Shown piece after piece: positions 353 to 16,221 of a DNA stretch of 18,090 nucleotides (positions are counted from its first letter, which is position 1; each line of letters starts with the position of its first letter). Source of the DNA: Phycisphaeraceae bacterium. GTDB taxonomy: Bacteria > Planctomycetota > Phycisphaerae > Phycisphaerales > Phycisphaeraceae. The position numbers were made by a program, and so were the translations under genes. The DNA lies in the NCBI GenBank assembly GCA_029260695.1, contig JAJDCT010000169.1, positions 1 through 18,090 of the forward strand, read 5' to 3'. The notes under the pieces are model-generated. The model was not told the origin of the DNA, ran no database searches, and saw nothing but the letters and a program-made list of their open reading frames with translations.

Positions 353-1186
353 TCAGGCCAGTTCACGCAGCTTGGCGACGCGGTCGGCGGTGCTGGGGTG
401 GGTCCGGAACAGGCCTGCCAGGGCGCGTCCGCCGGCAAAAGGTTGCACGATGAACATGTGGTTCTGCGTGGGCATCTGATTATCCATCGGCACACGGCGA
501 GCGGTGGCTTCAAGTTTCTGTAATGCGGAGATCAGCCCGTGGGGGGTCCCCGCGATGGCGGCACCGTCGGCATCAGCCACATATTCCCGGCTTCGGCTGA
601 TCGCCATCTGGATAATCCCCGCCGCGATCGGTGCCAGGACCACGAAAAGCAGGGCCAGCAACGGGTTTACGTCCCGGCTACGTCCGCCGAACATGAACAC
701 CCAGCCCAGCGCGCTGATCGCCCCGGCGATCGTGGCGGCGACCGTGGAGGTCAGGGTGTCACGGTTCTTGACGTGAGCCAACTCATGGGCCATCACGCCT
801 TCAAGCTCGTCGTAGGTCAACAGCGAAAGCGCCCCCTGTGTCACAGCCACGGCGGCGTGCTTTGGGTTACGTCCGGTGGCGAATGCGTTGGGTGCCTGCT
901 GCGGGCAGACGAAGACGCGCGGCATTGGGAGCCCGGCGTTTTGCGACAGCCGGCCGACCATCTCGATCAGATCGGGCGCGGTCTTACCATCGACCTGTTT
1001 GCCGCGCATTGTTGCGATAGCGATTTTATCGCTGTGGAAGTAGGCGATCACGTTGCCTATCCCACCGATCACGAAGGCGAAGACAACGCCCTGTGCGCCG
1101 CCGAACAGGTAGCCGGCCAACAGGATCAGGCCGAACATCAGGCCCAGCAGGATCGCGGTCTTGGTGTTGTTTACGAATTGGGTCAT
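353..1186 (-). CDS. htpX: HtpX-family membrane zinc metalloprotease (M48)
   Basis: A 277-residue M48 peptidase that, in this family, degrades misfolded membrane proteins on the cytoplasmic side of the inner membrane. The zinc site is visible as HELAH at residues 134-138, with the third ligand probably E201 in SREYVADADG. Two N-terminal membrane segments (about 10-28 and 31-50) and two after the active site (about 146-167 and 176-196) match HtpX, and the C-terminal FRTHPSTADRV motif is also typical. The start is supported by AGGAG nine bases upstream of the ATG. It has its own terminator on the left and a 162-base gap on the right, so it is probably a separate transcription unit and not part of the polysaccharide locus. 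Confidence 0.95.
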   Translation of the reverse strand: MTQFVNNTKTAILLGLMFGLILLAGYLFGGAQGVVFAFVIGGIGNVIAYFHSDKIAIATMRGKQVDGKTAPDLIEMVGRLSQNAGLPMPRVFVCPQQAPNAFATGRNPKHAAVAVTQGALSLLTYDELEGVMAHELAHVKNRDTLTSTVAATIAGAISALGWVFMFGGRSRDVNPLLALLFVVLAPIAAGIIQMAISRSREYVADADGAAIAGTPHGLISALQKLEATARRVPMDNQMPTQNHMFIVQPFAGGRALAGLFRTHPSTADRVAKLRELA

Positions 1187-1348: not shown

Positions 1349-2212
1349 TTACCCGCTAAACGGGTCGAAGGGCAGGGCGGCCATTTTCCAGGCGGCGACA
1401 GCCATCAGGGCGATGAACGCGAGCCTGACCTGCCGTAGCGGCAGGCTGTGGGTCAGCGAGGCCCCCAGGCGTGCGCCGGCCCAGGCCGTGGGCGCGAGCA
1501 TCGCCGCGATCACCAGACTCATCCGCCAATCGATGTGGCTGGTCCCGTTGGCGTGCTGGGCGAGTGTGGCGTTTTTGTAAATCGCGCCGATGGTTGCGCT
1601 GATGCAAATGATGGCGGACGAGTTGGCGATGCAGTTTCGCAGGGGGAGCTTTAGAAGCAGTTGTTGCAAGGGGACTGCGATCGCGCCGCCGCCGACGCCC
1701 AGAAGACCGGCGATCGAGCCCATTACCGCACCGACGGCCGACCCTGTTGCCGGTGTGATCCTTCGGCCGTCCATGTTCTCCGCTGGGTTTTTGTCGCGCA
1801 GCTTCTGCACGTTCATCACGATCACATAGACCAGGAACACCGCCAGCAGCCGACCTAGCCATCTCCCGCCGTCGGCACCTTCGAAGACAGGCAGGTTACT
1901 CACCCAGACCCCGGCTATGACACACACCAACGAAGCGGGCAGCATCCACATTAGCGCGTCGGGGACCAGTGCGTCGGCCTTGCGGTGACGCAGCGTCGCG
2001 GGCACGGAGACGATGACGTTCACGATCATCGCCGCCGCCTGGAACAGGTGTTGGTTCGGCTCGGGTGTGCGGTCGAAGGAAAACAGGATTGCCAGCCCGG
2101 GGATCATCACGACGCTGCCGCCGACACCCAGCATCCCCCCGAGTATGCCCGCGATCACGCCGAGTAGTACCAGCGAGATCAATACGACGGGATCGGATAG
2201 CAGCAGGGACAT
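1349..2212 (-). CDS. TauE/SafE-family permease
   Basis: A 287-residue polytopic membrane protein with the internal duplication of the TauE/SafE (former DUF81) family: GGMLGVGG at 25-32 opens the first half and GLLGVGGG at 169-176 the second, each followed by a hydrophobic span. Members move sulfite, organosulfonates or other small anions across the inner membrane; the substrate cannot be read from the sequence. It lies 18 bases behind the glycosyltransferase at 2231-3394 on the same strand and is probably co-transcribed with it. That position next to a sulfotransferase-rich locus makes a role in sulfur supply or sulfite removal attractive, but this is inference. Confidence 0.88.
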   Translation of the reverse strand: MSLLLSDPVVLISLVLLGVIAGILGGMLGVGGSVVMIPGLAILFSFDRTPEPNQHLFQAAAMIVNVIVSVPATLRHRKADALVPDALMWMLPASLVCVIAGVWVSNLPVFEGADGGRWLGRLLAVFLVYVIVMNVQKLRDKNPAENMDGRRITPATGSAVGAVMGSIAGLLGVGGGAIAVPLQQLLLKLPLRNCIANSSAIICISATIGAIYKNATLAQHANGTSHIDWRMSLVIAAMLAPTAWAGARLGASLTHSLPLRQVRLAFIALMAVAAWKMAALPFDPFSG

Positions 2213-2230: not shown

Positions 2231-3394
2231 CTAGGTGGCGGGTGACGTGTGGACCTTGGACTCGACTGCCGACAGTCGATCGGGCACAGGCCGGCCCGCT
2301 AACTCATAACACATCTTCTCGTATTGATCGGTCACACGCTCCCAAGAGTAGACTTTGGCGGCGTGTTCGGCGGCGCGGGTGCGGTAGCCCTCGACCTCCT
2401 GGGGCTGGTTCAAAACATGATCGAGTACCGCCTTAAGTGCCTCGGCCCCGCCCGCCCCATCGTAGCCCAAGCCGCTGGCGTCGATGGTCTGGAGGTTGAC
2501 AGGGGTGTCGTTGACGATGCAGCAGTTGCCCATGGCCATCGCCTCAATCAGTGCCGGGTGCGTGCCACCGACGCCGGTGGTCGCGACGTAGGCGTAGGCG
2601 TTGGAGCCCAGTTCGCTGTAGCCTTCGCCGAAGACGTACCCGGTGAAGATGATCCGCTCATCTGCACCGGCGAGGTCGCGTAGCTGCTGCTGATATTCCT
2701 CTGCGTAAGGCGCGTCCCCCACGATGACGCACTTCATACTGGTGTCGGTTTTGGTAAACGCTTCAACCAGGTGGTGGGCGTTGTTCTCCGGGACGAGCCT
2801 CCCGACAAAGAGGATGTATTTTTGGTGTTCCAGCCCGAACTGTTTAAGCGTCTCGCCCGGGGGGAGCTTGTCGATGTCCGAGCCGTAGACGATGTAGGGC
2901 GGGGCCTTGCCGGTCTTGTCTTTGTAGTAGGCCTGCACCAGCGGGCTGTCGGTCAGGTAAAGGGTCGGCCCAAACTGCGCGAACCACTCGGCGAATTGGA
3001 TATACCGCTTGGCGAGGCTGTTCCATTTGTCGCGCTTCCAGTCGAGCCCGTCGACATTCAGGGCGGTCCGGGTCCCGATCAGCCGAGGTATCCATGTCAC
3101 CGGGCTGTTGCCTGCGATGAAGTAGAGCCCGACGTGGTAGCCCTCTTTAAGGGCGTGCAGCGAGGAGAGGAAGCTGTGGAACAACGTGTCCAGGTACTTG
3201 TTTTGGATGGTTGGGAGTTTGACCAGACGCATGCCCATGTAGGTGTCGCTGGGGTGGTCGATGTGGTGCGACCGGCAGTAGACGGTCACGTCGTGACCTC
3301 GTTGGGCGAGGCGTTGGCCGAGTTGCTCGACGCAGGTCTCGAACCCGCTGTAGCTTGCGGGGATACCCCGTGTGCCGAGCAAAGCGATCTTCAT
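2231..3394 (-). CDS. DUF1972/GT4-type glycosyltransferase
   Basis: A 387-residue glycosyltransferase with a GT-B layout. The N-terminal KIALLGTRGIPASYSGFET segment is the hallmark of the DUF1972 domain, found in rhamnosyltransferase-like enzymes of surface-glycan clusters. The C-terminal half holds the nucleotide-sugar region: ILFVGRL near residue 200 and the GT4-type HPALIEAMAMGN segment near 290. It should add one sugar to the lipid-linked repeat unit in the cytoplasm; donor and acceptor are unknown. The ATG at 3394 is chosen. An in-frame TTG at 3418 would add eight residues but lies very close to a TATACT box at 3432-3427. Divergent from the sulfotransferase at 3511; followed by the TauE/SafE permease. 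Confidence 0.88.
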   Translation of the reverse strand: MKIALLGTRGIPASYSGFETCVEQLGQRLAQRGHDVTVYCRSHHIDHPSDTYMGMRLVKLPTIQNKYLDTLFHSFLSSLHALKEGYHVGLYFIAGNSPVTWIPRLIGTRTALNVDGLDWKRDKWNSLAKRYIQFAEWFAQFGPTLYLTDSPLVQAYYKDKTGKAPPYIVYGSDIDKLPPGETLKQFGLEHQKYILFVGRLVPENNAHHLVEAFTKTDTSMKCVIVGDAPYAEEYQQQLRDLAGADERIIFTGYVFGEGYSELGSNAYAYVATTGVGGTHPALIEAMAMGNCCIVNDTPVNLQTIDASGLGYDGAGGAEALKAVLDHVLNQPQEVEGYRTRAAEHAAKVYSWERVTDQYEKMCYELAGRPVPDRLSAVESKVHTSPAT

Positions 3395-3426
3395 ATTTTG
3401 CTTGTTGGGGTTCTTCAAGGCGGGAC

Positions 3427-3510: not shown

Positions 3511-4440
3511 ATGAACGAAAAGACGCTACCCAATCTGATTATCGCCGGTGTAAACAAGGCCGGGACCACCTCGCTGTATGCGTACCTCGGCCAGCACCCG
3601 CAGGCCGGGGCGTCGGCGGTGAAGGAGACCTGCCACTTCCTGCCGCTGCGCTACGGCGAGCCGATGCCGGCGATCGAGGCGTACCACGCCCAGTTCGCCC
3701 GGGTCGTAGATAAGCCCCTGAGGTTCGAGTCCACACCGGGGTACTTCTATGGCGCGCAGGTGTTGATCGATGGGCTTACCAGGACGCTGGGGGCGGACGT
3801 GAAGATCGTCTTGATCTTCCGTGAACCGGTGGGTCGGCTGGTCTCGTTCTTCAACTTCAAGAAGAGCACGCTCGAACTCCCGGCAGACCTGACGCTTAAG
3901 GATTATGTCGAACGCTGCGGTGCCATGGAAGATGGCGCGTTGTGTGAGCGGGAGAATAACCCGTGGTTCGGGCTGGAAGGCGGGAAGTACGCCGACTATT
4001 TACGGCCGTGGGTCGACACGTTTGGTGATCGGCTGAAGGTTTTGTTCACTGATGACCTGCACAGCGATCCGCGGGGTGTGCTTCGGAATGTGTTCACATT
4101 TGCGGGTGTTGATCCCGGCGAGGCTGATCGGATTATTCTGACGCGGGAGAACAAGAGCACGGACTACCGTTTCGCCGGGGTGCAGCGGTTGGCATTGGCG
4201 ATGAACCATGTGGGCGAACGGTTCTGGCGTTCGCACCCGAAGATTAAGCGCTCTGTTCGGCGGGTGTATTACGCGATCAACGGCCGGGCATTTGAGGCGG
4301 GAGATGACCCGGCCGTACTCGAAGAGCTGCGTCGTTTCTATGAGCCGTACAACGACCGTCTGGCTAAGCAGCTCCGCGCTGCGGGGTATGACAAACTCCC
4401 GGACTGGCTGACGCAGAGCGCGGCGGGGGGGGCGGTATGA
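3511..4440 (+). CDS. Sulfotransferase 1, NDST-like (Sulfotransfer_1 type)
   Basis: A 309-residue cytosolic sulfotransferase expected to move sulfate from PAPS to a sugar hydroxyl or amino group. The 5'-phosphosulfate loop is NKAGTTS at residues 15-21 and the 3'-phosphate site is REPVGRLVS at 104-112. ESTPGYFY and, later, GGKYADYLRPW with FTDDL are typical of the heparan N-sulfotransferase-like bacterial group. The ATG at 3511 is preferred; a GTG at 3502 would add only three residues. It shares the most sequence with the sulfotransferase at 10904-11845 (LIIAG, AGTTSL, YLG-x-HP, REP-x-x-RL). It is translationally coupled to the next gene by an ATGA overlap. Confidence 0.9.
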   Translation: MNEKTLPNLIIAGVNKAGTTSLYAYLGQHPQAGASAVKETCHFLPLRYGEPMPAIEAYHAQFARVVDKPLRFESTPGYFYGAQVLIDGLTRTLGADVKIVLIFREPVGRLVSFFNFKKSTLELPADLTLKDYVERCGAMEDGALCERENNPWFGLEGGKYADYLRPWVDTFGDRLKVLFTDDLHSDPRGVLRNVFTFAGVDPGEADRIILTRENKSTDYRFAGVQRLALAMNHVGERFWRSHPKIKRSVRRVYYAINGRAFEAGDDPAVLEELRRFYEPYNDRLAKQLRAAGYDKLPDWLTQSAAGGAV

Positions 4441-5450
4441 TCGCGCAACTCGATGCCGACTACATCAAGACACGGCCGACCAAGGCGGCGTCACGTCTGG
4501 TGGCGCACCTGTTACTACAGGGTCGTCCGCTGACGACTTCGATGCGCTGGCTCAACCCGTTATTGATGGCACAGTACGGCTTGATTAAGCGGTTGCCGAT
4601 GCCGCGTAAGGTTGTTTCGCCGGTCTTCGTTTTGGGCACGGGGCGCAGCGGGACGACGATCCTGGGCAAAGTCCTGGGGATGCACCGGGACATGCTGTTC
4701 CTCAACGAACCCAAGGCGATGTGGCATTCGGCGTGTGTGTTAGACGATGTGATGGGCAGCTACCAGCTCGGTGAGGCCAGTTACACGCTGGATTCTACGC
4801 AGGCCGACGAGGCCACATCGCGCGCAATACGTCGGATCTACAGCTATGCGCTATTGGTCACAGGATCCGGGCGTGTGCTGGACAAGTATCCGGAGATGAT
4901 CTTCCGTGTGCCGTTCGTCAGGGCGGTATTCCCCGACGCGAAGATGCTGTTTCTGGTACGCAACGGCTACGATGCGCTGCGTTCGATCGCTACCTGGTCG
5001 AAAAGAGCGGGGAGGAAGTCGTCCGGGGGGATCGAAGACTGGTGGGGGTTAGATAAACGAAAGTGGAATCTGTTGGTCCGGGACGTTGTGGCGAAAGATG
5101 ATGATCTGGCGGATCGTGCGGAAGCGATTTCAGGGTTGACCCGTCACGAAGACATGGCTGCGGTCGAGTGGGCGGTGACGATGCGCACGGGCCTACGATT
5201 GATGGAAGAGCAGCCGGGTCTGCTCTACACGGTACACTACGAAGCGCTATGCGGGGAACCGGGGCCGGCGCTGTGTGGGGTGTGTGATTATTGCAACCTG
5301 TCGGACGACCCGAAGTTTCTCGCTTATGCCCAGCGCACACTGTCGCCCGTCCCCGCCAGGCCTGCGGCGGAACTCGACCCGCTGATACGCGATGTTTTTG
5401 AAGACACGATGCGCCGGCTGGATTACCCGGTCGATCCCTCACCGGCTTAG
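4437..5450 (+). CDS. Sulfotransferase 2 (Sulfotransfer_3 type)
   Basis: A 337-residue protein with an amphipathic, basic N-terminal extension of about 60 residues and then a sulfotransferase domain. The PAPS loop is GTGRSGTTI at about 67-75 and the 3'-phosphate region VRNGYDALRS at 174-183, where the more usual D-P-R is replaced by N-G-Y. The ATG overlaps the stop of sulfotransferase 1 (ATGA) and is preceded by a long G run that can serve as ribosome binding site. A CGVCDYC cluster near residue 280 is unusual and could bind metal or form a disulfide. Its last 12 bases overlap the convergent sulfotransferase 3. Acceptor unknown. Confidence 0.85.
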   Translation: MIAQLDADYIKTRPTKAASRLVAHLLLQGRPLTTSMRWLNPLLMAQYGLIKRLPMPRKVVSPVFVLGTGRSGTTILGKVLGMHRDMLFLNEPKAMWHSACVLDDVMGSYQLGEASYTLDSTQADEATSRAIRRIYSYALLVTGSGRVLDKYPEMIFRVPFVRAVFPDAKMLFLVRNGYDALRSIATWSKRAGRKSSGGIEDWWGLDKRKWNLLVRDVVAKDDDLADRAEAISGLTRHEDMAAVEWAVTMRTGLRLMEEQPGLLYTVHYEALCGEPGPALCGVCDYCNLSDDPKFLAYAQRTLSPVPARPAAELDPLIRDVFEDTMRRLDYPVDPSPA

Positions 5451-6452
5451 GCGTCGGCGTAGCGATTCGCGCAGGCTTTTAATACGATGGAAGTTCAACA
5501 GCAGTGCCAATGCACTCTTGAATACCCACGTCATCCGGCACCACGCCAGCGCCAGCAAAGATGCACATATAGGTTCGGCGGTGTAGCCGTGTCGGGTCAT
5601 ATGCCCGCCGGTGATGTGTTGGCAGATCGCCAACTCGGTCGGCGTCAGCCCGCCTTGTTTCCATCGGGCGGTAGCGGTGGGGTCAAGCCCGCGCTCGCTT
5701 GGGCGGTCCTGTTCGTGTGAGGACCCGACCCTTGGCACGTCCAGCATTGCCGGGTCGTATTCAAGTTCAGCTGTGGCACACACTTCTTTAAGCACGGCCT
5801 GGGGGTCTGTAATCAGGTCTTCGAACCGCAGCACGCAGACACGCGGATCGTCGGCGTATTTGTCGCCGGCCGCGATGCCGCTGCGCCACAGCAGGCAGAT
5901 CGTGATCGGGTGATAGCCCGCCCAGGTTCTAAGTGCGTTCCACCACGGCGTACTTTTTGCGCCTAGCTGCCGACGCTTCCATCGGTTCTTCTGCGATAAC
6001 ATCACGTCGCGGGGGTCTCGCACCATCACCACGAACTTTGCATCGGGGTAGAGCTTCAGCAACTCGTCGAGGTAATAGAGGTTCCGAGGCGTCTGGTCAC
6101 AGCCGATCTGTTTGCTGTGTAATGACAACTCATTGGCGATGAATGCGTCGAACAAGGAGGGGGGTGTCGTCAAGGGCGCGGGGATCAGGTCGACGATGGC
6201 GGACGCTTCCTGCGTGTATTCTTTGGACTTCGTCTGTGAGTAGTATCCGTCACGCTGGATTGTCAGCAGGCGTGCCGCCAATGCGGTGGCATCTTCACGA
6301 GTAATCGCTTGCGGATCAGATGCGGGAGCCCACAGCTGCTCGAAGAAGTGTAACTCGTGAAATGTGAAGACCGACTGGTGCCCGCCCAGAACCCTGCCCA
6401 TCATGGTCGTACCGCTACGGCTGTTACCGACGACGAAGATCATCCGTCCCAT
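5439..6452 (-). CDS. Sulfotransferase 3 (Sulfotransfer_3 type)
   Basis: A 337-residue sulfotransferase. The PAPS loop NSRSGTTMM is at residues 10-18 and the 3'-phosphate site VRDPRDVMLS at 144-153, both close to consensus; CDQTPRN (118-124) is a further family landmark. It is the last gene of the long minus-strand operon. Two starts are possible: ATG 6452, used here, or ATG 6443, which would make an exact ATGA overlap with the preceding glycosyltransferase and remove three residues. Its 3' end overlaps that of sulfotransferase 2 on the other strand by 12 bases, so no ordinary terminator can sit between them. Confidence 0.88.
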   Translation of the reverse strand: MGRMIFVVGNSRSGTTMMGRVLGGHQSVFTFHELHFFEQLWAPASDPQAITREDATALAARLLTIQRDGYYSQTKSKEYTQEASAIVDLIPAPLTTPPSLFDAFIANELSLHSKQIGCDQTPRNLYYLDELLKLYPDAKFVVMVRDPRDVMLSQKNRWKRRQLGAKSTPWWNALRTWAGYHPITICLLWRSGIAAGDKYADDPRVCVLRFEDLITDPQAVLKEVCATAELEYDPAMLDVPRVGSSHEQDRPSERGLDPTATARWKQGGLTPTELAICQHITGGHMTRHGYTAEPICASLLALAWCRMTWVFKSALALLLNFHRIKSLRESLRRRLSR

Positions 6453-7666
6453 GGTGCCCCCGCTTCCCGATAGACACCCATCAACTCGTGGTAGTGCGTT
6501 TCAGCGTCAAACCTTTCGAGCATCTTGGATCGGCCGGCGCGACCCATGGCGTCGGTGCGCTCGGGGTCTGCGTGCAGGGCCTGGATCTGCTGGCGTAACC
6601 CGGCTGCGTTGCGCGGATCAAAGAGCAGGCCATCAATGCCGTCGTCGATCAGCTCGGGCAGTGCGCCGATACGGCTGGCGATCACCGGACGACTCTGCGC
6701 GAATGATTCGAGCACGGTCAATCCAAACGGCTCGTGCCATTCTGCTGGGAGGACCGTTGCGAGGCTGTCGCGGATCAGCCGCTTAAGTCCCTCCCCGTGA
6801 GTGAAGCCGATCAGTTCGATGTTGTTGATCCCGCGGCTACGGATCATCTCGGCAAGTTCGGGCTTGGCGTTGCCATCACCCACCACCTTCACCTTGACAT
6901 CCGGCAGGCAGGAGGCGGCCTCCGCCAATGTCATGACGCCCTTGACCCGCTCGATCCGGCCGAAGTACAGCAGATATCTGTCTTTTCCTCCGGGGGGTGT
7001 CTGGCTTGCAGGCTCGTCGCCAGGCTCGACGAAGTTGTAGACGCGGCTGATCTTTTCTTCCGGCACGCCGTGCTCGGCCATCTTGCGTTTCTGGAAATCA
7101 CTGATCGCGATGAAGCGGTCGATGCTGCGCTGGCTCCCGATCATACGGGAGACATACCACTCGAATGCCGATAGTGCCGAGCGTGAAAGTGAGCCGCGGT
7201 TAAACCGCCGGGCCACCGCACGCCAGGCACTTATGCCACAGCAATCCTCGTCGATCCCGTCGTTGTGTGTCAGTGTGTAGTTTGGGCTGATCTGGCGGTA
7301 CTCGTGCATCGTGTGGACGATCGGTATCCCCTCGGCTCGGAGTACGGGTAGGATCGACGCGGTGAGTTTTCCGTAATAGATGTGAAGGTGTGCAACATCC
7401 GGCCGGTGTTCACGGATCAAGTCACGTAGCGCTTTTGCGGCCGGGCGTGAGTAGACGTAGCGCAGCAGGTCGACCGGTCCTGGCTTATCGAAGTCGGCGG
7501 CGGGCGGGAAGTGCGCTGACCAGGGGGAGAGTGGGTTTTCAGGGTGTTTCGCAACGAAGGGGATGGCCGTGTGCCCGTGCTGCTCAAGCAAGGCGCAGGT
7601 GTCAAGGAACATCCGGTCGGAACCGCCTTTGACGAACAGGTTTTGCGAGACCTGTAAGACCTTCAT
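6440..7666 (-). CDS. GT4-family glycosyltransferase
   Basis: A 408-residue GT-B retaining glycosyltransferase. The N-terminal KGGSDRMF (13-20) is the acceptor-side glycine loop; FGRIERVKGV (235-244) carries the Arg and Lys that contact the donor phosphates; EPFGLTVLE (312-320) is the E-x7-E motif of GT4. A D-C-C-G segment at 141-144 is present, as in some other GT4 enzymes that hold cysteines there. It should extend the lipid-linked oligosaccharide in the cytoplasm; the sugar is unknown. The ATG overlaps the stop of the preceding Wzy/WaaL-like gene (ATGA), and its own stop overlaps the start region of sulfotransferase 3. Confidence 0.9.
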   Translation of the reverse strand: MKVLQVSQNLFVKGGSDRMFLDTCALLEQHGHTAIPFVAKHPENPLSPWSAHFPPAADFDKPGPVDLLRYVYSRPAAKALRDLIREHRPDVAHLHIYYGKLTASILPVLRAEGIPIVHTMHEYRQISPNYTLTHNDGIDEDCCGISAWRAVARRFNRGSLSRSALSAFEWYVSRMIGSQRSIDRFIAISDFQKRKMAEHGVPEEKISRVYNFVEPGDEPASQTPPGGKDRYLLYFGRIERVKGVMTLAEAASCLPDVKVKVVGDGNAKPELAEMIRSRGINNIELIGFTHGEGLKRLIRDSLATVLPAEWHEPFGLTVLESFAQSRPVIASRIGALPELIDDGIDGLLFDPRNAAGLRQQIQALHADPERTDAMGRAGRSKMLERFDAETHYHELMGVYREAGAPWDG

Positions 7667-9147
7667 GCCGCATCGTGGCTCGTTGGGATAGTTTTTGTGG
7701 AGGTGTCAGGGCTAACGTGCTGCGCTGACCACGCAGCGAATGCCAGGCCGGGGAGCAGCCAGAAGTAGAAGCTGAACGAGCGGATCTCGGGCACACGGTT
7801 GAACCACATCAACCCCGCCGCCTGTAACACGATGCACATCGCCGCCAACGCGGCCCATCGCACGGTCGGATCGTAGCGCGCGGTACTTGCAACAGCTGCG
7901 CAGGTCCATGCCATGCGAGCACCCAGCCAGAGTACGGCGATCACCCCCGCTAACCCGGTGTAGCAAAGCAAGGAGACCCAGTAAACGTCCTCGAACCCCT
8001 CCTTGGCCATGGCTTTGTATAACCTGTTCTTCGGCTCTTGGTTGAGTTGCCTGATTGTGTGCTCTTCGTCTGGCCCGTACCCGAGTACCGGTGCATTCAT
8101 AAGCACGGTCGGTGCGACCCCGAAGACGGCTCCAATACGTTGGCGCTTGGCGCGCTCCAGGTATTCGGCGGAGAAGATGTTGGTCATGTTGTTGAGTATC
8201 GAAAGCCTGGCGTTGCGCGGGTGTCGGAATGCTTTACTACTGGTATCCATCTGCAGCGACCCCGCCAGTATTGCCAGTCCCAGCGCCGCTGCCACGCAGC
8301 ACGCCGCGAGGACTCTGCGCATCCCAAGTCGGTATCCGGTGAACGACAGCAATGTCATGCCGGTTAAGATGACCGCTGCGCGGGAGAAAGAGTACGCTGT
8401 CCCCAAGGCCATCGCCACGGCCTCGGCTGTGTGCCAGCCCCGCCACCGGGTGACCCGTGGCAGTGCGACCGACAGGACGACCAGCAGGAACAGGCCGTAA
8501 TAGAGCGTGTCACCGAGTGTGCCAAAGACGCTGCCGATCTCCCGGCCGCGCTTGACGATAGCGAAGTTACGCGTCTGGCCAACGATGTCTGCGTCGACCG
8601 TGTACGGCAGCATCCAGACTTTCAGGTTGTAACCCGCTTGCCATTGGATCAATCCGGCGAGGATCTGCACCGCGCCGGATACCAGGATCACACTTAACAG
8701 CATGTGTACCTGTCTGCGAGACAAACCGATGTTAACAACAAGATAGAAGACGGCCGCGTAGCGTAATGCTGACCGCAGATTCATGAGGCTCCCGACGAGG
8801 GGCGCGTTATTGACCGCGACAGTGATCGCGACTATTGCGAGGATGACCAGCAGCGGGGCGTCGATCGGTGTGCGTGTCAGGCCTCGGCCGGTTGAAAGGC
8901 GGACGAGTACAACCGCGGCCAGGACCAGGTAAACAGATGCTTCGATGATGAACTGCAACCCGAACAGGACTCGCTCCGGTGCTTGCAGTCGGGCGATCAG
9001 GGTGACCAGAAAACTTTCCAGGGGCACTAGCGCGGTGATCGCGAGTATGAATGCGTATAGCCATGGCCGGGCACCTAAGTGACCAGCCTGGCTTGCCTGG
9101 CCCGCCTCGGTGGGCTGTACGGGTGTTGCTCCCGGATCCTGTGTCAT
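7663..9147 (-). CDS. O-antigen ligase/polymerase-like membrane protein (Wzy_C type)
   Basis: About 494 residues with ten or more hydrophobic segments and one large hydrophilic loop (roughly residues 300-390), the layout of the Wzy/WaaL superfamily. The motif AYSFSRAAVIL near 251-261 and the loop segment PVLGYGPDEEH are typical Wzy_C landmarks. It would polymerise repeat units or ligate the finished glycan on the periplasmic side; the two roles cannot be told apart here. The start at 9147 is chosen because it makes an ATGA overlap with the upstream sulfotransferase and has GGAG six bases before it. An ATG at 9159 would add four residues. The extreme N- and C-termini are hydrophilic and probably cytoplasmic. 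Confidence 0.85.
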   Translation of the reverse strand: MTQDPGATPVQPTEAGQASQAGHLGARPWLYAFILAITALVPLESFLVTLIARLQAPERVLFGLQFIIEASVYLVLAAVVLVRLSTGRGLTRTPIDAPLLVILAIVAITVAVNNAPLVGSLMNLRSALRYAAVFYLVVNIGLSRRQVHMLLSVILVSGAVQILAGLIQWQAGYNLKVWMLPYTVDADIVGQTRNFAIVKRGREIGSVFGTLGDTLYYGLFLLVVLSVALPRVTRWRGWHTAEAVAMALGTAYSFSRAAVILTGMTLLSFTGYRLGMRRVLAACCVAAALGLAILAGSLQMDTSSKAFRHPRNARLSILNNMTNIFSAEYLERAKRQRIGAVFGVAPTVLMNAPVLGYGPDEEHTIRQLNQEPKNRLYKAMAKEGFEDVYWVSLLCYTGLAGVIAVLWLGARMAWTCAAVASTARYDPTVRWAALAAMCIVLQAAGLMWFNRVPEIRSFSFYFWLLPGLAFAAWSAQHVSPDTSTKTIPTSHDAA

Positions 9148-10112
9148 ACCTGGCTCCATTCGCCAAGGTCACGTCCGATCAGCTCTGCGAGGGCGTCGTT
9201 GTGAGGCGCGAAGTGATCGAGGAGTTTGCGTTGAGTCTGCTCGTTCATCGGGGGGGGCGTGAAGGGTTTTTCATTAAGCCGAAGGAGCGTGCGTCTGGCG
9301 CGGTAGGCCAAGCGGTGGGGGATCAGCTTCCTGACAACACGCTTGATCGGGTTTTTGGATTTAAGCATCCCGGCCAATACCCGTGCCGCTGGCTCGCTCT
9401 TAGCAGCCGAAGCGGGGTTGTGGGCGGTGGTCAGGTTGGGGGGGAAGCCGGGGTCGATGCCGGCTGCCTCGAAGATTGTTTTGCATAGCCGTGCCGGGTC
9501 AGCCGCCAGGTCGTCTGTGAGGAATATGTGGACGCGCTCCTTTCCAAAGGTGTCGTGCAGGCTCTTGATATGCGGGTGGTAGACGCCTACATGCAGGTGC
9601 ATCCTGTCTCGGTGAGGCAGCCAATTGTCGGCGGGTTGGTCGGCTTCCCACTTGATGGCCTGCTCGAAAGTTGTTGCCTTCTCCCATCCTCGGCGCCTTG
9701 CGTACCAGAAGGACGAGTATGCTCGTCTGACCGGGTTACGCAGCAGGGCGAAGATATGGGCTTTGGGATTGTGTTCTTTGAGCCGTTGCACCGCATTGGG
9801 TGAGTACATGGTGAAGACGTGTTTGGCGATGGGCAGCGCTTCTCCGACCGGGGCATCGGGGTAGTATTTGGCTACGCAGGCGTCGTAGCCGTGCTGATAC
9901 TCATCGTCACCGAAGAAGTAGGACAATTCGGGCTGGTGGTGGCTGATGAAATCGGGATGCTGTGCGGCGTATCGGTAGAGGCTGGTGGTCCCGGCCTTGG
10001 GTGCGCCGACGAGCATGACGCGGATCGATTTTGCACCGGTGACCGATTCCGAAGCGCGCCCGGGGGTCGGTGCGGGGGAGTGAGTCGTGGTATCGGGGGC
10101 TGGCCGAGGCAT
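9144..10112 (-). CDS. Sulfotransferase 4 (Sulfotransfer_1 type)
   Basis: A 322-residue sulfotransferase. The PAPS loop GAPKAGTTS is at residues 36-44 and the 3'-phosphate site RNPVRRAYSS at 125-134, both standard. About 30 low-complexity residues rich in Pro, Thr and Ala precede the domain. The start at 10112 is chosen because it follows the methyltransferase stop by two bases and has a G-rich ribosome binding site (GGGGCGAG); the longer open frame from 10262 would add 50 Arg/Pro-rich residues lying over the methyltransferase and is rejected. The stop overlaps the next gene as ATGA. Likely acts on the same lipid-linked or nascent glycan; acceptor unknown. Confidence 0.88.
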   Translation of the reverse strand: MPRPAPDTTTHSPAPTPGRASESVTGAKSIRVMLVGAPKAGTTSLYRYAAQHPDFISHHQPELSYFFGDDEYQHGYDACVAKYYPDAPVGEALPIAKHVFTMYSPNAVQRLKEHNPKAHIFALLRNPVRRAYSSFWYARRRGWEKATTFEQAIKWEADQPADNWLPHRDRMHLHVGVYHPHIKSLHDTFGKERVHIFLTDDLAADPARLCKTIFEAAGIDPGFPPNLTTAHNPASAAKSEPAARVLAGMLKSKNPIKRVVRKLIPHRLAYRARRTLLRLNEKPFTPPPMNEQTQRKLLDHFAPHNDALAELIGRDLGEWSQV

Positions 10113-10114
10113 GG

Positions 10115-10810
10115 TTACTCGCCCCGGTCGGGATCGATGTGTACGAATTTGAGCATCCTGCGAGATTGGGGTTCGGGCCGGCCGTCGTCGTGCCCGAGTT
10201 CCAGGAGCGACCCGACGTCGGTCGGCACGAGACCAAAGCGCTCGGCGGTCTGGACATACCACGCCATCGGGCGGTGGACAACGGGGAAGCCTTGCCAGTT
10301 ACCGTTATCCGCCTCGCCGATGTTGACGTTGCTGTAGAACGAGCCGTGTGGCTGGAGGTGCTTGGACACGAAGGTCAGGCAGCCGTTGAGCGCATCATCG
10401 TCCATGTGGATCAGCACGGAGAAAGCCCAGACGGTGTCGGCCTTGTTGTCGAGTTCGAGTGATGACAGCCCCTGGGAATGGATTAGATTGGGTTCCTTTC
10501 TCTCCAGGCCTGCTTCGCGTAACTCGTCTCGGCCAAGTTCCAGGACATCTTCGCGGACCTCGATGCCGGTGTAATGGCCCTTGTCGAGCAGCCTAATTAG
10601 AGGGATGCCACCGCGCAGTGTGCCGCAGCCGATGTCGATCAGCCGGTGGTGCGGTTCAAGGCCGTGTTGCTTGAGGAAGTCGATTTGAAATCGGCGTTTC
10701 ATTTTCCAGAGGTATGCTGGGCCAACGGCGGAGTGCCGACGACCCGCCTCGCCGGCTAAGACCCGGCTAAGTCGGTTGCGTAGAGATCGGGCTTTGCTTT
10801 GGATGCTCAT
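10115..10810 (-). CDS. Class I SAM-dependent methyltransferase
   Basis: A 231-residue methyltransferase. Motif I is LIDIGCGTLRGG (57-68), where the glycine loop binds S-adenosylmethionine; the acidic end of strand 2 is GIEVRED (E84); VWAFSVLIHM is the motif IV region. The basic N-terminus (SKARSLRNRLSRVL) could form an amphipathic helix. Set between sulfotransferases in a glycan operon, O-methylation of a sugar is the simplest role, but it could also methylate another metabolite. The ATG at 10810 is preferred to a GTG at 10855. The 93-base gap to the gene before it is the only sizeable gap inside the operon; no clear promoter or terminator was seen there. Confidence 0.85.
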   Translation of the reverse strand: MSIQSKARSLRNRLSRVLAGEAGRRHSAVGPAYLWKMKRRFQIDFLKQHGLEPHHRLIDIGCGTLRGGIPLIRLLDKGHYTGIEVREDVLELGRDELREAGLERKEPNLIHSQGLSSLELDNKADTVWAFSVLIHMDDDALNGCLTFVSKHLQPHGSFYSNVNIGEADNGNWQGFPVVHRPMAWYVQTAERFGLVPTDVGSLLELGHDDGRPEPQSRRMLKFVHIDPDRGE

Positions 10811-10903
10811 AGGTTCTGCCGAAATAGATCGTGGTTCAGGCGGGTATCTTACCACGAGGCGCGTGGGTTTACCGGCCGGGCGATGTGTTACGAAGTGTAT
10901 GGA

Positions 10904-11845
10904 TTACCACTGCCACTGGGGTAGGTCGAGTATCCGGGCCAGGTCTGCGGGTTCTTGGCGGTAGTAATCTTCCAGCCGGCGTCGATCGTGGTCCGTGAGT
11001 ACCCCGCCGGGGTCGGATGTGCCGGCAACGGGCGTCCCCCCCACGGCGTTGCCCGACCGTCCCAGGGCGGCGTCGGTTGATCGGCGTAGTTTTCGTAGCG
11101 CTGCACGGGCCGCGGGCCTGTCGTGGATGTGGGGTTTGATACGCCAGATCAGCGAGCGGTAGGCCGACTGGATCTTCGGCCAGCGTACCCTTCGAGACTC
11201 ATTGTGTATGTCGAAGGTGTAATTGCTGTAGCACGCCGGGTCGATCCCGACGTGGTCGCAGATGTGGCGGGTCACGTCCGCCGGTGTGTTCAACAGGTCC
11301 CGGTAGTGGCAGATGATCAACCTTGAGCTGTCGAAGGCTTCAACCCATGGAGTGAGGAACTGGGCGTAGCGACCTTCTTTAAGTGAGCGCAGGTGTTGCG
11401 GGAGGTTTTTTCCGGTGGCTTCGGCGTCAAACTGTGTCTGGATATAATCTGTCAGTGTCGTCTTAGCATCGAGCAAGCCGTTCTGGATCGCGTAGCGCCG
11501 CCAGGAAATGAGTCGGCTGATCGGCTCACGCAGGATGACGACAACAACCGCACCGGGCAGGGAGTCAGCGATCCGCTTGGCGGCGGTGGGGCAGTAGAGG
11601 TAGTCGGGCGTCGCCTCAAGGCGGACTGACTCGGCGGGACAATCGGGAAAAAAAGTGTTGTAGGCACCGAGCCCCTCTTCGTAGTGGTGGATGCGTTTGA
11701 GTTCGCTGCTATCCAGAAAGAACCGCGTCTCTTTGATGGTGGATCGGTGGACCCGAGGGTGATCGCCGAGGTAATTAAATAGCGACGTGGTCCCGGCCCG
11801 TGTGGTGCCGGCGATGATCAGATGCTTGGCCGAGGCTGGGTTCAT
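10904..11845 (-). CDS. Sulfotransferase 5, NDST-like (Sulfotransfer_1 type)
   Basis: A 313-residue sulfotransferase closest in this window to sulfotransferase 1. The PAPS loop GTTRAGTTS covers residues 13-21 and the 3'-phosphate site REPISRLIS 106-114; EATPDYLY and GRYAQFLTPW correspond to ESTPGYFY and GKYADYLRPW in sulfotransferase 1. The catalytic-loop Lys is Arg here (TRAGTT), a substitution also seen in other members of the superfamily. The start at 11845 gives an ATGA overlap with the flippase gene and an N-terminus like its paralogue; the longer frame from 11938 adds 31 residues over the flippase and lacks support. Ends QWQW-stop. Confidence 0.88.
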   Translation of the reverse strand: MNPASAKHLIIAGTTRAGTTSLFNYLGDHPRVHRSTIKETRFFLDSSELKRIHHYEEGLGAYNTFFPDCPAESVRLEATPDYLYCPTAAKRIADSLPGAVVVVILREPISRLISWRRYAIQNGLLDAKTTLTDYIQTQFDAEATGKNLPQHLRSLKEGRYAQFLTPWVEAFDSSRLIICHYRDLLNTPADVTRHICDHVGIDPACYSNYTFDIHNESRRVRWPKIQSAYRSLIWRIKPHIHDRPAARAALRKLRRSTDAALGRSGNAVGGTPVAGTSDPGGVLTDHDRRRLEDYYRQEPADLARILDLPQWQW

Positions 11846-13230
11846 GGGGTGGGTTGTTGTGTATGTGGGAGTGTCGGCCGGGCTATCAGCCAAAAGAGGT
11901 TCAGGACCGAGAGGACGGCCGCGGTGCTCGCCGCCCACGCCACACCTCTAAGCCCAAGCCAGTGGAACAGCACGAACGCGAGCAAGACGTTCGCCACCGC
12001 GGCGAGACACATATTGTACAGCACCGCGCCGAAGCGTTTCTGGGCGTAGAGCGCGGAATTGAGTATGGGGGTCAGGCAGTAGAACACGGCCGCGGGCCCG
12101 AGCACGAACAGGACCGACGCCGAGGCGGTGAGCCCATCGTGGCCCAGGTCGCTCCCGCCGTAAAGCAGGCCGATGATCGGTCGGCTTAGCAGCATCAGCA
12201 GCGCCGCTGCGGGGACACTGATAAGCAGGATAACCCCGATGCGTCGGCGGAGCGCCGTGATGAACCGCCCGCGTTCACCTGCCAGATCGTGTTCGGTCAG
12301 CTTGGGGTGGCCCGTCAGTGCCACGGACACGCCAACGAGGTTCTGGATCGCAGCGAGCAGTCGGTAGGCGTAGTAGTAGGCGGCGACCGAGCCGTCGGGC
12401 CCCATCGACGTGATGATGCGCTCGACGACACGCGCCGATTGTCTGACGCCAAACCCGGCAAGGGGGTACCCGATCGTGCCGCGCAGTCGGTTGAATGTGC
12501 TTTGGCCCGGCCAGCGGCGCAGGTCGGGGACGAAACGCAGTCGGCTCCCGGCGTGGAGTGTCAGCAGCAGGAAATACAGACCGTAACCGGCGGTGAACGC
12601 GCCCGCGATCCAGTAGGGGGCTTGAGGGTTACGCCAGGTTGCCAGCGTAGTCGCGATCACCACGGCCGGAGCGACTGTGTTGCGGATGGCGGTGACAGTG
12701 AAGTGTTTGTGGCTGTTGAGCATGACTTCGAGCACTGCGGCGCCCAGAGCGAACGTGGCGATCCCCGCAGCCAGACGCAGCAGTGTGGCGGAGAGCACGC
12801 GGTCGGCGGGTTCCAGCCCCCAGCCGACGACCGAGACAACCGGCCCGGCGAGCAGCAGACCCGCGCATGTCAGCACCACCCCGACTACCAGGAACAGGTT
12901 CAGTACCCGTGCGCCCAGGTCAGCAAAAGCGCCGTCGCCGTCTTCTTTTTGAACCTGGATAAACACGGTCATCAGGCTGAATCGCGTCCCGTCTCGGCCG
13001 ACCGCCGCGATCATCCTGGGGAGGGTCAGGGCAATCAGCAGGGCATCGGTGGTTGCGGTGAATCCCAACCGGCGGGCGATCAAGACGTCCGCCAACAGTG
13101 CCAGCACCATGCCTACCCCGCTGAGGGTCATGACCCGCTGGGTCGAGCTGTGCCACAGACGTGAGAGCAGACGGGTCATCGGGTAGCGTTCACGGCATGT
13201 GGTAGGGGGTGATGGTTCATGGTCGGCCAT
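11842..13230 (-). CDS. MurJ/MviN-like lipid-linked oligosaccharide flippase
   Basis: A 462-residue polytopic membrane protein with about twelve to fourteen hydrophobic spans. The N-terminal region ARRLGFTATTDALLIALTLP aligns in character with the MurJ A-x-x-x-G-x-x-x-x-x-D-A-F motif, and MLNSHKHFTVTAI with the MurJ N-x-x-K-x-F segment, so it belongs to the MVF branch of the MOP exporters rather than to classical Wzx. In this setting it should flip the undecaprenyl-linked repeat unit to the periplasm. ATG 13230 is used; ATG 13179 is possible and would drop 17 hydrophilic residues, with no clear ribosome binding site for either. It is the first gene of the seven-gene operon and divergent from the WbaP-like gene. 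Confidence 0.85.
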   Translation of the reverse strand: MADHEPSPPTTCRERYPMTRLLSRLWHSSTQRVMTLSGVGMVLALLADVLIARRLGFTATTDALLIALTLPRMIAAVGRDGTRFSLMTVFIQVQKEDGDGAFADLGARVLNLFLVVGVVLTCAGLLLAGPVVSVVGWGLEPADRVLSATLLRLAAGIATFALGAAVLEVMLNSHKHFTVTAIRNTVAPAVVIATTLATWRNPQAPYWIAGAFTAGYGLYFLLLTLHAGSRLRFVPDLRRWPGQSTFNRLRGTIGYPLAGFGVRQSARVVERIITSMGPDGSVAAYYYAYRLLAAIQNLVGVSVALTGHPKLTEHDLAGERGRFITALRRRIGVILLISVPAAALLMLLSRPIIGLLYGGSDLGHDGLTASASVLFVLGPAAVFYCLTPILNSALYAQKRFGAVLYNMCLAAVANVLLAFVLFHWLGLRGVAWAASTAAVLSVLNLFWLIARPTLPHTQQPTP

Positions 13231-13316
13231 GGTAGCGGCGTTGCGATCCTTGGGTCACTTCCTGATAGCCGAATCGAGCCTCACCGGTAGATAACCCGCC
13301 TTTTTACCAAGGTTTG

Positions 13317-13344
13317 TTGACTTTAACGCCCCCCGGTTTACACT
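13317..13344 (+). promoter_or_regulatory. Candidate promoter of the WbaP-like gene
   Basis: TTGACT (13317-13322) and TACACT (13339-13344) are separated by 16 bases, a fair sigma-70 match, and lie about 70 bases upstream of the ATG at 13416. This is a pattern call by eye only. Confidence 0.4.
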
Positions 13345-13349
13345 TGCAA
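13320..13349 (-). promoter_or_regulatory. Candidate promoter of the flippase operon
   Basis: On the minus strand TTGCAA (13349-13344) and TAAAGT (13325-13320) are separated by 18 bases and lie about 90 bases upstream of the flippase ATG. They occupy almost the same DNA as the plus-strand candidate at 13317-13344. Weaker than that one. Confidence 0.3.
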
Positions 13350-13415
13350 TAGACTGCGGCTTAGGCTCGTTCGGCTGCATAAGGATGGCACCGATCGGCG
13401 TGGGAACGCTTTGAC

Positions 13416-14963
13416 ATGACCCCCAGTAATATTGTCTCACCCCAATCGCCTCCGGCCACCTCGGCCGTTGAGATCGTGACCACCACGCCGCCTCGCCGGA
13501 GGCTGCGTCGGCCGCCGGCGCGTGACCCACTGGCGTTCAGGCGGGTGCGTTGGGTTGGGCTGACTCTGTTTCTGACAGACGTGGTGTCGATGCAGTTGGC
13601 CCTCTCCTTGGGCACCTGGCTGCGGACCTTGTTCGATATGCTCGGTAGGGATTCGGGGCTGCAGTGGTTGCAGGGCGGGCTCCGCCGGGGGGAGTACGGC
13701 TCACTTGCGGCGGGGATGATGGTCCTGCCGGTCGTCTACTGCTTTCAAGGCTTGTACCCCGGGTACGGGCTAACCGCGGTGGAGCGGCTGCGCCGGCGGG
13801 TCCACACCGTGGGCCTGGTCTTTGCGCTACTGATTGCATGGGACTACGCGGTGGTCAAGACAGACCCTTCCCGTGGCGTGTTGGTTTTGACGTTCCTCTT
13901 CGCGGTTGTGTTGGGCCCGGTGTTTGAAGCGTTCTCACGGAAGCTGCTTCGGATGGTGGGTGCCTGGGGCATGCCGGTTGTCATACTCGGTGCCGCCAAG
14001 ACCGGCGAACTGGTGACAAGGGTGCTCCAACGCGAGCCGGAGTTGGGCTTTGTCCCGATCGCGGTGTACGACGACGACCCCGAGAAGTGGACGAAGGACA
14101 TCGCAGGGGTGCCGGTGCTCGGTCCCTTATCGCGAGCCAAGAAGCAGTCGAAGATCTGCCGCACCGCCCTGATCGCCATGCCCGGGATGGAGGCGAAGAA
14201 GGCGGCGCACCTCAGCCACCGCCTGCCGTTCGCCCGGGTCATCTCTATCCCGGACCTGGTCGGCTTATCGAGTTTGTGGGTCTCGTCACGCGACCTAGGC
14301 GGCGTCGTCGGGCTCGAGGTCAAGAAGAACCTGTTCCCCCGGCGGAACTGGATGCTCAAACGATCGCTGGATTACGTGCTGGGTGTGCACCTGTTCATCG
14401 CCAGCCTCCCGCTGCTTGCGGTCTTCGGCCTGTGGATCAAGATCGTCAGCCCAGGTGCCCCGGCCCTCTTCCGCCAGCCCCGCGTCGGGTTCGGCGGCAA
14501 GACGTTCAGCATCTGGAAGCTGCGCACCATGTACCCCGACGCAGACGAACGACTGCACGCCTATCTGGAAAACGACCCCGAGAAATTCGAGCAGTGGAAA
14601 CGCTATTGCAAACTCAAGGACGATCCCCGCGTCCTGCCCGGCATCGGCCGACTCCTGCGCCGCACCAGCCTCGATGAACTGCCGCAACTCTGGAACGTCC
14701 TGGTCGGCGAGATGAGCCTGGTCGGCCCACGGCCTTTCCCACACTACCACCTGTCACGTTTCAGCCCACGCTTCCGCACCATCCGAAGAAGCGTCCTCCC
14801 CGGCCTCACCGGGCTCTGGCAGGTCTCCGGCCGAAGCGAAGGCGATGTCAACGTCCAGGAACTCATGGACACCTACTACATCCGAAACTGGTCGCTCTGG
14901 CTGGACATCTACCTCCTCGCACGAACCATCGGCGCGGTGCTGTTGGGTAAAGGGGCGTACTGA
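13416..14963 (+). CDS. wbaP: WbaP-type undecaprenyl-phosphate sugar-1-phosphate transferase
   Basis: A 515-residue polyprenyl glycosylphosphotransferase that starts glycan assembly by moving a sugar-1-phosphate (galactose or a related sugar) from its nucleotide carrier to undecaprenyl phosphate. After a Pro/Thr/Arg-rich cytoplasmic N-terminus come about four membrane segments (roughly 45-175), a Rossmann-like middle domain with [13 protein letters not shown] near 188-200, and the C-terminal catalytic domain: [31 protein letters not shown] (D420-E421 is the catalytic Asp-Glu pair), MSLVGPRP and [12 protein letters not shown]. The S-R-D-L-x-G-x-x-G-L-E segment is characteristic of WbaP-like members. 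The ATG has only a weak ribosome binding site. It is divergent from the flippase operon and is the best indicator that the locus uses a Wzx/Wzy-like route. Confidence 0.92.
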
Positions 14964-16139: not shown

Positions 16140-16221
16140 CTGGAATTTCTCTGACGGTGCCCAACTGTGACTGTAGGTTCTATCTGGTCAGTTGAATTGT
16201 TTCTTTTCGGGAGCATGAGAC

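Follow-up and report, generated by a model that had tools for sequence, protein, structure and literature searches.

A planctomycete gene cluster with five sulfotransferase lineages that recur together in other phyla

The stretch of DNA analysed here (the window, 18,090 nucleotides) is a whole contig (JAJDCT010000169.1; G000:C169) from the draft genome of a Phycisphaeraceae bacterium (GCA_029260695.1; G000; 2,842,216 bases in 492 contigs, 76.9% complete). Eleven genes between 2231 and 14963 encode five sulfotransferases (ST1 to ST5), two glycosyltransferases of family GT4 (GT4a, GT4b), a methyltransferase (MT), a polymerase/ligase-like membrane protein (WZY), a flippase (MURJ) and an initiating transferase (WBAP). 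As judged from sequence, each of ST1 to ST5 represents an orthologous lineage of its own, and the five lineages recur together outside the genus as a module, with GT4b and usually WZY. We read the locus as a Wzx/Wzy-type assembly line, whose predicted glycan would bear multiple sulfates on each repeat as well as a methyl group and would be sulfated before flipping. To this reading we assign a probability of roughly three in four.

Five sulfotransferase lineages and their relatives

The original prediction of five sulfotransferases that use 3'-phosphoadenosine 5'-phosphosulfate (PAPS) was borne out, because all five proteins score above the curated Pfam cut-offs (22 or 27 bits) of PF00685 and/or PF13469 (best scores in Table 1) and so fall inside the superfamily. 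The PAPS 5'-loop xxxGTT is found in each of them (NKAGTT, GRSGTT, SRSGTT, PKAGTT, TRAGTT). The 3'-phosphate pattern RxPxxRxxS, also claimed for all five, is exact in only three (REPVGRLVS, RNPVRRAYS, REPISRLIS), and looser variants occur in ST3 (RDPRDVMLS) and ST2 (RNGYDALRS). In alignments within the genus (five or six sequences each) the motif-defining letters are invariant while the x positions vary; only in ST2 does one genome depart from this, with Gln in place of the Arg that precedes the serine.

Among solved structures the nearest relatives of ST1 are heparan sulfate 3-O-sulfotransferases (1t8t, E 1.2e-16) and that of ST5 is the N-sulfotransferase domain of the heparan sulfate enzyme NDST (1nst, E 8.4e-21). 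ST4 is akin to 3rnl and to the heparan N-sulfotransferase domain (1nst). ST2 and ST3 show weak matches to tyrosylprotein sulfotransferases and to CurM, a polyketide sulfotransferase. By sequence, ST1, ST4 and ST5 are thus relatives of animal heparan sulfate N- and 3-O-sulfotransferases. Such kinship to the heparan enzymes (PDB 1nst, 1t8t, 3bd9; E down to 8.4e-21) is kinship in the donor and not identity of the acceptor. The heparan enzymes are animal proteins acting on a glycosaminoglycan (GAG) backbone, whereas the 15 window genes that were scanned with profile libraries showed neither an N-deacetylase domain nor a GAG synthase. When the catalytic residues of the heparan enzymes were mapped onto ST1 and ST5 in profile alignments, the acidic residue near the KETxxF of ST1 did not align with the 3-O-sulfotransferase glutamate.

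For comparison within the genus we used six draft genomes, G000 and G001 to G005 (records: the Phycisphaeraceae metagenome-assembled genomes (MAGs) OFTM41, OFTM355, OFTM326 and OFTM374, and Planctomycetota Dive100_bin3.48; loci L081-L085). G003, G004 and G005 keep all eleven genes with unchanged order and orientation, and so does G002, where a contig break lies inside WZY; in G001 nine of the eleven were found, on two contigs. The same gene set, which the original prediction proposed to look for in related genomes, was thus found there, and the module extends beyond the genus. The WZY protein was found in four of the five other genus genomes, and a search of 55 further genomes from the family and order gave no match at E ≤ 0.001. 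For the window and G004, the only genome pair compared in this way, twelve genes show amino acid identities of 72-90% and dN/dS values of 0.08-0.17, with 0.12-0.17 for the sulfotransferases. All compared genes are under purifying selection relative to this one congener. Decay of redundant sulfotransferase copies was rejected, as all five lack stops and have dN/dS values of 0.12-0.17 in this pair.

A scan with two ST5 peptides over 84,980 species, each represented by one genome, yielded 15 loci, five from the genus and ten from elsewhere (L086-L095). Four of these ten carry at least three orthologous sulfotransferases side by side. The whole set lies in one gene run in L092, a Desulfuromonadales MAG, where ST1 to ST5, a second ST4, WZY, a flippase, GT4b, GT4a and WBAP follow RmlB, D, A and C; from the sequence starts, its flanks look like ordinary chromosomal genes. 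Four occur in L086 (planctomycete MAG: ST5, ST4, ST3, ST2, GT4b, a GT4a relative and a polymerase of another family) and four in L089 (Bacteroidota MAG: CysC, CysD, CysN, CysQ, flippase, ST5, WZY, GT4b, ST1, ST2, ST3). Three occur in L087 (Gloeobacterales MAG, genome G429; cut by a contig end), which reads Wzc-type kinase, CysQ, Sat, CysC, RmlB, A, C, D, ST5, WZY, GT4b, ST1, ST2. L090 resembles L089 but is truncated, leaving ST5, a partial WZY and cys genes; L091 has ST5, its sole sulfotransferase, with WZY and GT4b. L088 (Ca. Jettenia ecosi) has ST5, WZY, CysQ and two sulfotransferases outside the five lineages, and no ST2 was found in its genome at E ≤ 1e-20. L094 has three sulfotransferases, none a clear orthologue, and L093 and L095 have one each. 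Within L086, at 16194-17873 between ST3 and ST2, lies a 559-residue protein that matches GINT1_N (PF24793, E 2.4e-38).

Reciprocal best matches pair each named sulfotransferase in L086, L087, L089 and L092 with its counterpart in the window, at identities of about 31-49% (ST2: 38-49%). GT4b is 38-47% identical in L086, L087 and L092, 28% in L089 and 39% in G306, an anammox genome described below; GT4a relatives in L092, L088 and L135 are 26-29% identical. In trees of 32 and 24 proteins, clades spanning phyla were obtained for ST1 (support 100/100, 7 rows), ST4 (100/99, 6 rows), ST5 (97/92, 12 rows), ST2 (95/97, 9 rows) and ST3 (93/88, 6 rows, below the strict mark of the tool). XssA, L095_a, L094_b, L092_ST5, L094_c, L046_other and L050_other drew long-branch warnings, so that their exact placement is unsure; L092_ST5 also has the lowest identity (31%) within its group. 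Because orthologues of each sulfotransferase occur outside the genus, the five do not represent a lineage-specific expansion. Duplication of this kind was rejected also on identity, which is about 20-35% among the lineages (over at least 200 residues), whereas each lineage shares 31-49% with its own orthologues. That five divergent enzymes persist as distinct lineages would fit different positions or substrates; one enzyme per sulfation position, as originally proposed, is a possible case of this.

Gene order was examined by permutation (20,000 shuffles, both flippase families counted as one gene). It is clearly kept in L086 (21 of 21 concordant pairs, p 0.0004, a count that includes the GT4a relative completed afterwards, 26% identical), and in L092 (31 of 36, p 0.005), and moderately so in L089 (18 of 21, p 0.03). 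Our profiles drew on proteins of the window, the genus and L086-L092, which by itself raises the scores of these loci; no such dependence applies to G306, G162 and most of L135, the ST2 of L135 being that of L086.

ST2 was followed further. In the phylum of G429 it appears at E ≤ 1e-60 in one of 386 genomes, G429 itself, a number that may be too low as at most five candidates were scored per genome. A plasmid search gave five records at 21-28% for ST2 and 84 records for ST1, of which the 20 listed have 24-33%. The ST2 family counts at least 1612 proteins at E ≤ 1e-20 with a mixed profile, among the 7997 candidates scored, and single queries gave 2256 and 461 proteins at E ≤ 1e-60. Names among the best 120 of each search, which concern ST2 proteins alone and not loci, include Ca. 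Jettenia caeni, Ca. Brocadiaceae, Halomicronema, Phormidium, Pleurocapsa sp. FMAR1, Bacteroidetes, Gammaproteobacteria and Poribacteria.

Predicted assembly line and sulfate supply

That this is a dedicated locus for a sulfated and methylated glycan, as originally predicted, is supported by its gene content. WBAP, which exceeds the WbaP subfamily cut-off of 403 bits (TIGR03022), would load a first sugar, presumably a hexose phosphate, onto undecaprenyl phosphate. GT4a and GT4b, glycosyltransferases by family, would extend the lipid-linked sugar, possibly with rhamnose. Transfer of rhamnose by GT4a is a tentative lead, because its full-length match to the Cps2T rhamnosyltransferase model NF046071 (150 bits) lies far under the equivalog cut-off of 500. 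The lipid-linked repeat would then receive sulfate from the soluble ST1 to ST5, with cytosolic PAPS as the donor, and a methyl group from MT. We place sulfation on the cytoplasmic side, before flipping, because PAPS is cytosolic and no membrane segment was predicted by hydropathy in any sulfotransferase of the window. MURJ would flip the repeat and WZY would polymerise or ligate it, the families being recognised directly or through relatives and the direction of transport presumed. PAPS would be supplied by Sat and CysC, and chain-length and export proteins would likewise be encoded elsewhere in the genome. The partners named in the original prediction, a WbaP-like initiator, two GT4 enzymes, a MurJ-like flippase and a methyltransferase, were recovered, except that one GT4 gene (2231-3418) lies outside the interval from 3511 to 14963 to which the locus had been confined.

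As only three sugar-adding enzymes were recognised against five sulfotransferases, the gene content suggests a short repeat with unusually dense sulfation; the repeat could be longer if further glycosyltransferases encoded outside the locus contribute. The synechan cluster of Synechocystis offers a guide, where eight glycosyltransferases and two sulfotransferases are described alongside a sugar to sulfate ratio of 8 to 2, roughly matching the gene counts (PMC8205485).

Sat (PF01747) was found on other contigs in five of the six genus genomes, including G000, and the kinase of adenosine 5'-phosphosulfate (APS kinase), also on other contigs, in four of six and in all five other family genomes tested. 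CysD gave weak matches below the cut-off in five of six, the genus having the Sat type. Outside the genus, PAPS genes above curated cut-offs stand in L087 (Sat, CysC, CysQ), L089 (CysC, CysD, CysN, CysQ) and L090 (CysC, CysN, CysQ), and CysQ also in L088, G306 and G162; RmlA to RmlD occur in L087 and L092, and RmlA with RmlC in L088 and G306, pointing to dTDP-rhamnose (deoxythymidine diphosphate rhamnose). These names rest on NCBIfam cut-offs, apart from CysD in L090, which was assigned by our own profile. PAPS genes and sulfotransferase genes within one polysaccharide cluster are described as a hallmark (PMC11641403); L087, L089 and L090 show this combination and the window by itself does not. 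The genus is plausibly capable of PAPS synthesis, but in the window's own draft genome APS kinase was not found.

Several observations weigh against the proposed assembly line. The window genes scanned include no PAPS gene, and our own profiles detected none in L086, L091 and L092, stretches of about 20 kb each; Sat was not found in the G003 draft, nor APS kinase in G000 or in G004 (93% complete). No polysaccharide co-polymerase (PCP) or export gene is present among the scanned window genes. The flippase belongs to another family (Polysacc_synt/MatE-type) in all five loci tested (L086, L088, L089, L092, G306); we regard this, from the sequences, as a non-orthologous swap within a kept module. 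Subsets of sulfotransferases vary, with six of the ten loci outside the genus lacking three orthologous ones, and gene order is significantly kept in only three of six loci (L087 p 0.08, G306 p 0.14, L091 p 0.33). ST3 may be membrane-bound, because two distant ST3 proteins carry a C-terminal hydrophobic segment by hydropathy. Finally, one of the two synechan sulfotransferase mutants (xssE) is described as hardly altered (PMC8205485), so counting sulfotransferases may overestimate the sulfates.

The last observation, together with the differing subsets and the weak matches of ST2 and ST3 to tyrosylprotein and polyketide sulfotransferases, would also suit an alternative in which the five enzymes do not all serve one glycan, some being redundant or sulfating other molecules, with sulfation below the gene count. 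We consider this rather unlikely, as all five lie in one tight locus of genus-conserved order, each is under purifying selection in the pair compared, and L092 keeps the complete set in one run.

The WZY protein of the window has no Pfam match at E ≤ 0.1, and six of nine members of its family match Wzy_C (PF04932) at E ≤ 0.01; of the two members with scores, L092 lies over the cut-off of 31.7 bits (33.5) and L088 under it (28.3). The Wzy_C/O-antigen ligase superfamily includes both polymerases and ligases, and the two appear inseparable by family. WZY could therefore be a ligase, and an unpolymerised, short sulfated glycan would then end up on a lipid (lipid A or another) or on secreted proteins, for instance of PEP-CTERM type. 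The missing PCP and export genes would agree with this, as would an insert of about 3.4 kb between MT and ST5 in G005 that encodes three PEP-CTERM-like secreted proteins (L015 11987-15144; G005:C42 87987-91144), with more PEP-CTERM-like genes near that locus. Speaking for a polymer are the Wzc-type autokinase in L087, the genes for Poly_export, Wzz and Wzi proteins that lie at some 7-12 kb from the module in G306, and the two Poly_export matches elsewhere in each of the six genus genomes, which may be linked to the locus. We consider this alternative rather unlikely and retain the Wzx/Wzy-type reading. The window flippase is MurJ-type rather than Wzx-type and scores below the MurJ equivalog cut-off (162 versus 235.55).

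Layout of the window

Coordinates and assignments are collected in Table 1. ST1 starts at the ATG at 3511. The start of ST4 lies at about 10112 and not at 10262, the listed frame running into the methyltransferase. MT probably starts at 10810, judging from its 231-residue orthologues in G001 and G002, where the listed frame reaches 10855; ST5 probably starts at 11845. In the minus-strand run adjacent genes overlap or nearly touch, the exception being ST5 and MT, which are 48 to 93 bases apart according to where MT starts.

Table 1. Genes of the locus and its left flank, with positions in the window
Gene	Product	Position	Strand	Evidence
HtpX-like	M48 protease, flanking gene	353-1186		kept beside the locus in 5 other genus genomes
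TauE/SafE-type	membrane permease	1349..2212	-	PF01925 142 bits; same position in 5 other genus genomes
GT4a	glycosyltransferase, DUF1972 / Cps2T-like	2231..3418	-	PF00534, PF09314; NF046071 150 bits
ST1	sulfotransferase	3511..4440	+	PF00685 50.8 bits; 1t8t E 1.2e-16
ST2	sulfotransferase (Sulfotransfer_3)	4437..5450	+	PF13469 72.3 bits; 4-base overlap with ST1
ST3	sulfotransferase (Sulfotransfer_3)	5439..6452	-	PF13469 97.6 bits; convergent with ST2
GT4b	glycosyltransferase group 1	6440..7666	-	PF00534 105.4 bits
WZY	multi-spanning O-antigen polymerase/ligase-like protein	7663..9159	-	8 hydrophobic segments; family members match PF04932
ST4	sulfotransferase	9144..10112	-	PF13469 39.2 bits; 3rnl E 1e-31, 1nst E 4.8e-16
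MT	S-adenosylmethionine-dependent methyltransferase	10115..10810 (probable start)	-	PF08242 39.1 bits
ST5	sulfotransferase	10904..11845 (probable start)	-	PF13469 43.9 bits, PF00685 34.3 bits; 1nst E 8.4e-21
MURJ	MurJ/MATE-type lipid-linked oligosaccharide flippase	11842..13230	-	PF03023 148 bits
WBAP	initiating undecaprenyl-phosphate hexose-1-phosphate transferase	13416..14963	+	TIGR03022 410.1 bits, PF02397 187.1 bits

Both flanking genes stand beside the locus in all five other genus genomes, the HtpX-like gene being cut by the contig end in G001. A sulfite or sulfate role for the TauE/SafE-type permease is a guess. On the other side, 16222-18090 encodes a trypsin-like secreted protein that runs off the contig end and adjoins a DUF1559 protein, a type which we take to be typical of planctomycetes. 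The G004 frame that matches the end of the trypsin-like protein has a PEP-CTERM-like tail.

Known systems, anammox loci and significance

The original prediction set the locus against a sulfatase-rich planctomycete background and called the synthesis of sulfated glycans far less described. Neither part fits well: Sulfatase (PF00884) matches number only two to seven per genome in the six genus drafts, which is atypical for such a background, and in bacteria such synthesis is better described than supposed (PMC8205485, PMC11641403, PMC11766843). The closest precedent in plan is the synechan (xss) cluster on pSYSM of Synechocystis sp. PCC 6803, also of Wzx/Wzy type, with sulfotransferases of two subfamilies and loss of the polymer demonstrated in mutants (PMC8205485). 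A general plan of a priming transferase, glycosyltransferases, Wzx, Wzy and sulfotransferases in one cluster appears common to both (PMC8205485; L102), and the window might be thought a case of this known type. We consider that very improbable. As described, synechan has two sulfotransferases, eight glycosyltransferases and regulators of its own, whereas the window has five non-orthologous sulfotransferases, three sugar-adding enzymes and no regulator among the genes scanned. XssA and XssE show 22.6% and 22.5% identity to the nearest window sulfotransferase and fall outside all five clades (XssA with the long-branch warning given above), and XssF has no WZY profile match at E 1e-5. A synechan-type system was rejected on the non-orthology and clade placement of the sulfotransferases. 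A further sulfotransferase, encoded elsewhere in the congener G005 (L039; G005:C54:6905-7438), grouped with XssE (99/99), and because of this grouping the genus may have a second sulfation route.

In Vibrio sp. KMM 8419 (PMC11641403) and in Cobetia marina KMM 1449 (PMC11766843), the capsule clusters combine sulfotransferases with PAPS synthesis and dTDP-rhamnose genes, and the solved structures bear sulfated L-rhamnose. Going by their descriptions, these clusters depend on an ATP-binding cassette (ABC) transporter, unlike the window as we read it, and three sulfotransferase genes are named for Vibrio. Pontiella sulfatireligans (PMC7356697), like the window's organism a bacterium of the Planctomycetes-Verrucomicrobia-Chlamydiae (PVC) group, has a sulfotransferase in a putative cluster with glycosyltransferases and a methyltransferase, and a sulfated GAG-like exopolymer with mainly N-sulfation was measured; by description it differs in having one GAG-type sulfotransferase in the cluster and three in the genome. 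The wps-1 cluster of Actinoplanes missouriensis (PMC13390465) shares the Wzx/Wzy type, a heparan-type sulfotransferase and a methyltransferase, but is described with two sulfotransferases, in a Gram-positive organism and with its product unverified there. In Shark Bay mats, sulfotransferase genes are reported from some Planctomycetes MAGs, most orders of the phylum being without them (PMC9723792). Some of the genes treated here may be included among the cyanobacterial sulfotransferase clusters in the figure supplements of PMC8205485. Among the titles and abstract openings listed for open-access papers, none was found that describes this sulfotransferase set in Phycisphaerae, Brocadia or anammox bacteria. 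The general plan is known, then; what sets the window apart from the known loci compared, as far as these are described, is which sulfotransferases it has, how many they are and that they recur across phyla.

Within the planctomycete phylum, ST2 scores above 500 bits in three of 392 genomes, the window's own, G162 and G306, with the next score at 131 bits (at most five candidates per genome, so that this may be an undercount). G306, a single-contig genome, is probably Ca. Jettenia. Its locus comprises RmlA, RmlC, CysQ, a flippase, an ST5-like protein, a methyltransferase, GT4b, ST5, WZY, ST1, a GH20-like protein and ST2, and the export-related genes about 7-12 kb away are of Poly_export/SLBB, Wzz/GNVR and Wzi type. 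G162 has ST2, GT4b, CysQ, RmlA and a GT4a relative, and no other sulfotransferase of the module within the 34.6 kb read. GH20-like proteins lie inside or beside the anammox loci (L123 17338-18735, L124 536-1915, L088 13975-15414) and none occurs among the window genes scanned; they are hinting at hexosamine in the anammox polymer. Sulfated GAG-like material is reported from anammox and other granules, its producing members being described as unclear (PMC7356697), and the bacterial pathways to such material as not well known (PMC10483923). A bolder proposal, which we find possible but on balance doubtful, is that ST1 to ST5, GT4b and WZY form one horizontally mobile cassette in at least four phyla for a sulfated glycan of heparin-like density, probably containing rhamnose, and that in Jettenia-group anammox bacteria it makes the sulfated GAG-like matrix polymer.

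Bacterial routes to sulfated glycans have been described from a handful of loci. In animals and algae, sulfated glycans underlie signalling and matrix building. With the recurring set of sulfotransferases, bacterial glycans of dense sulfation could be sought by sequence in many phyla, and the set supplies candidate genes for the sulfated GAG-like material of anammox and other granules. For enzymology, the ST1, ST4 and ST5 lineages may provide soluble bacterial relatives of the heparan sulfate sulfotransferases.

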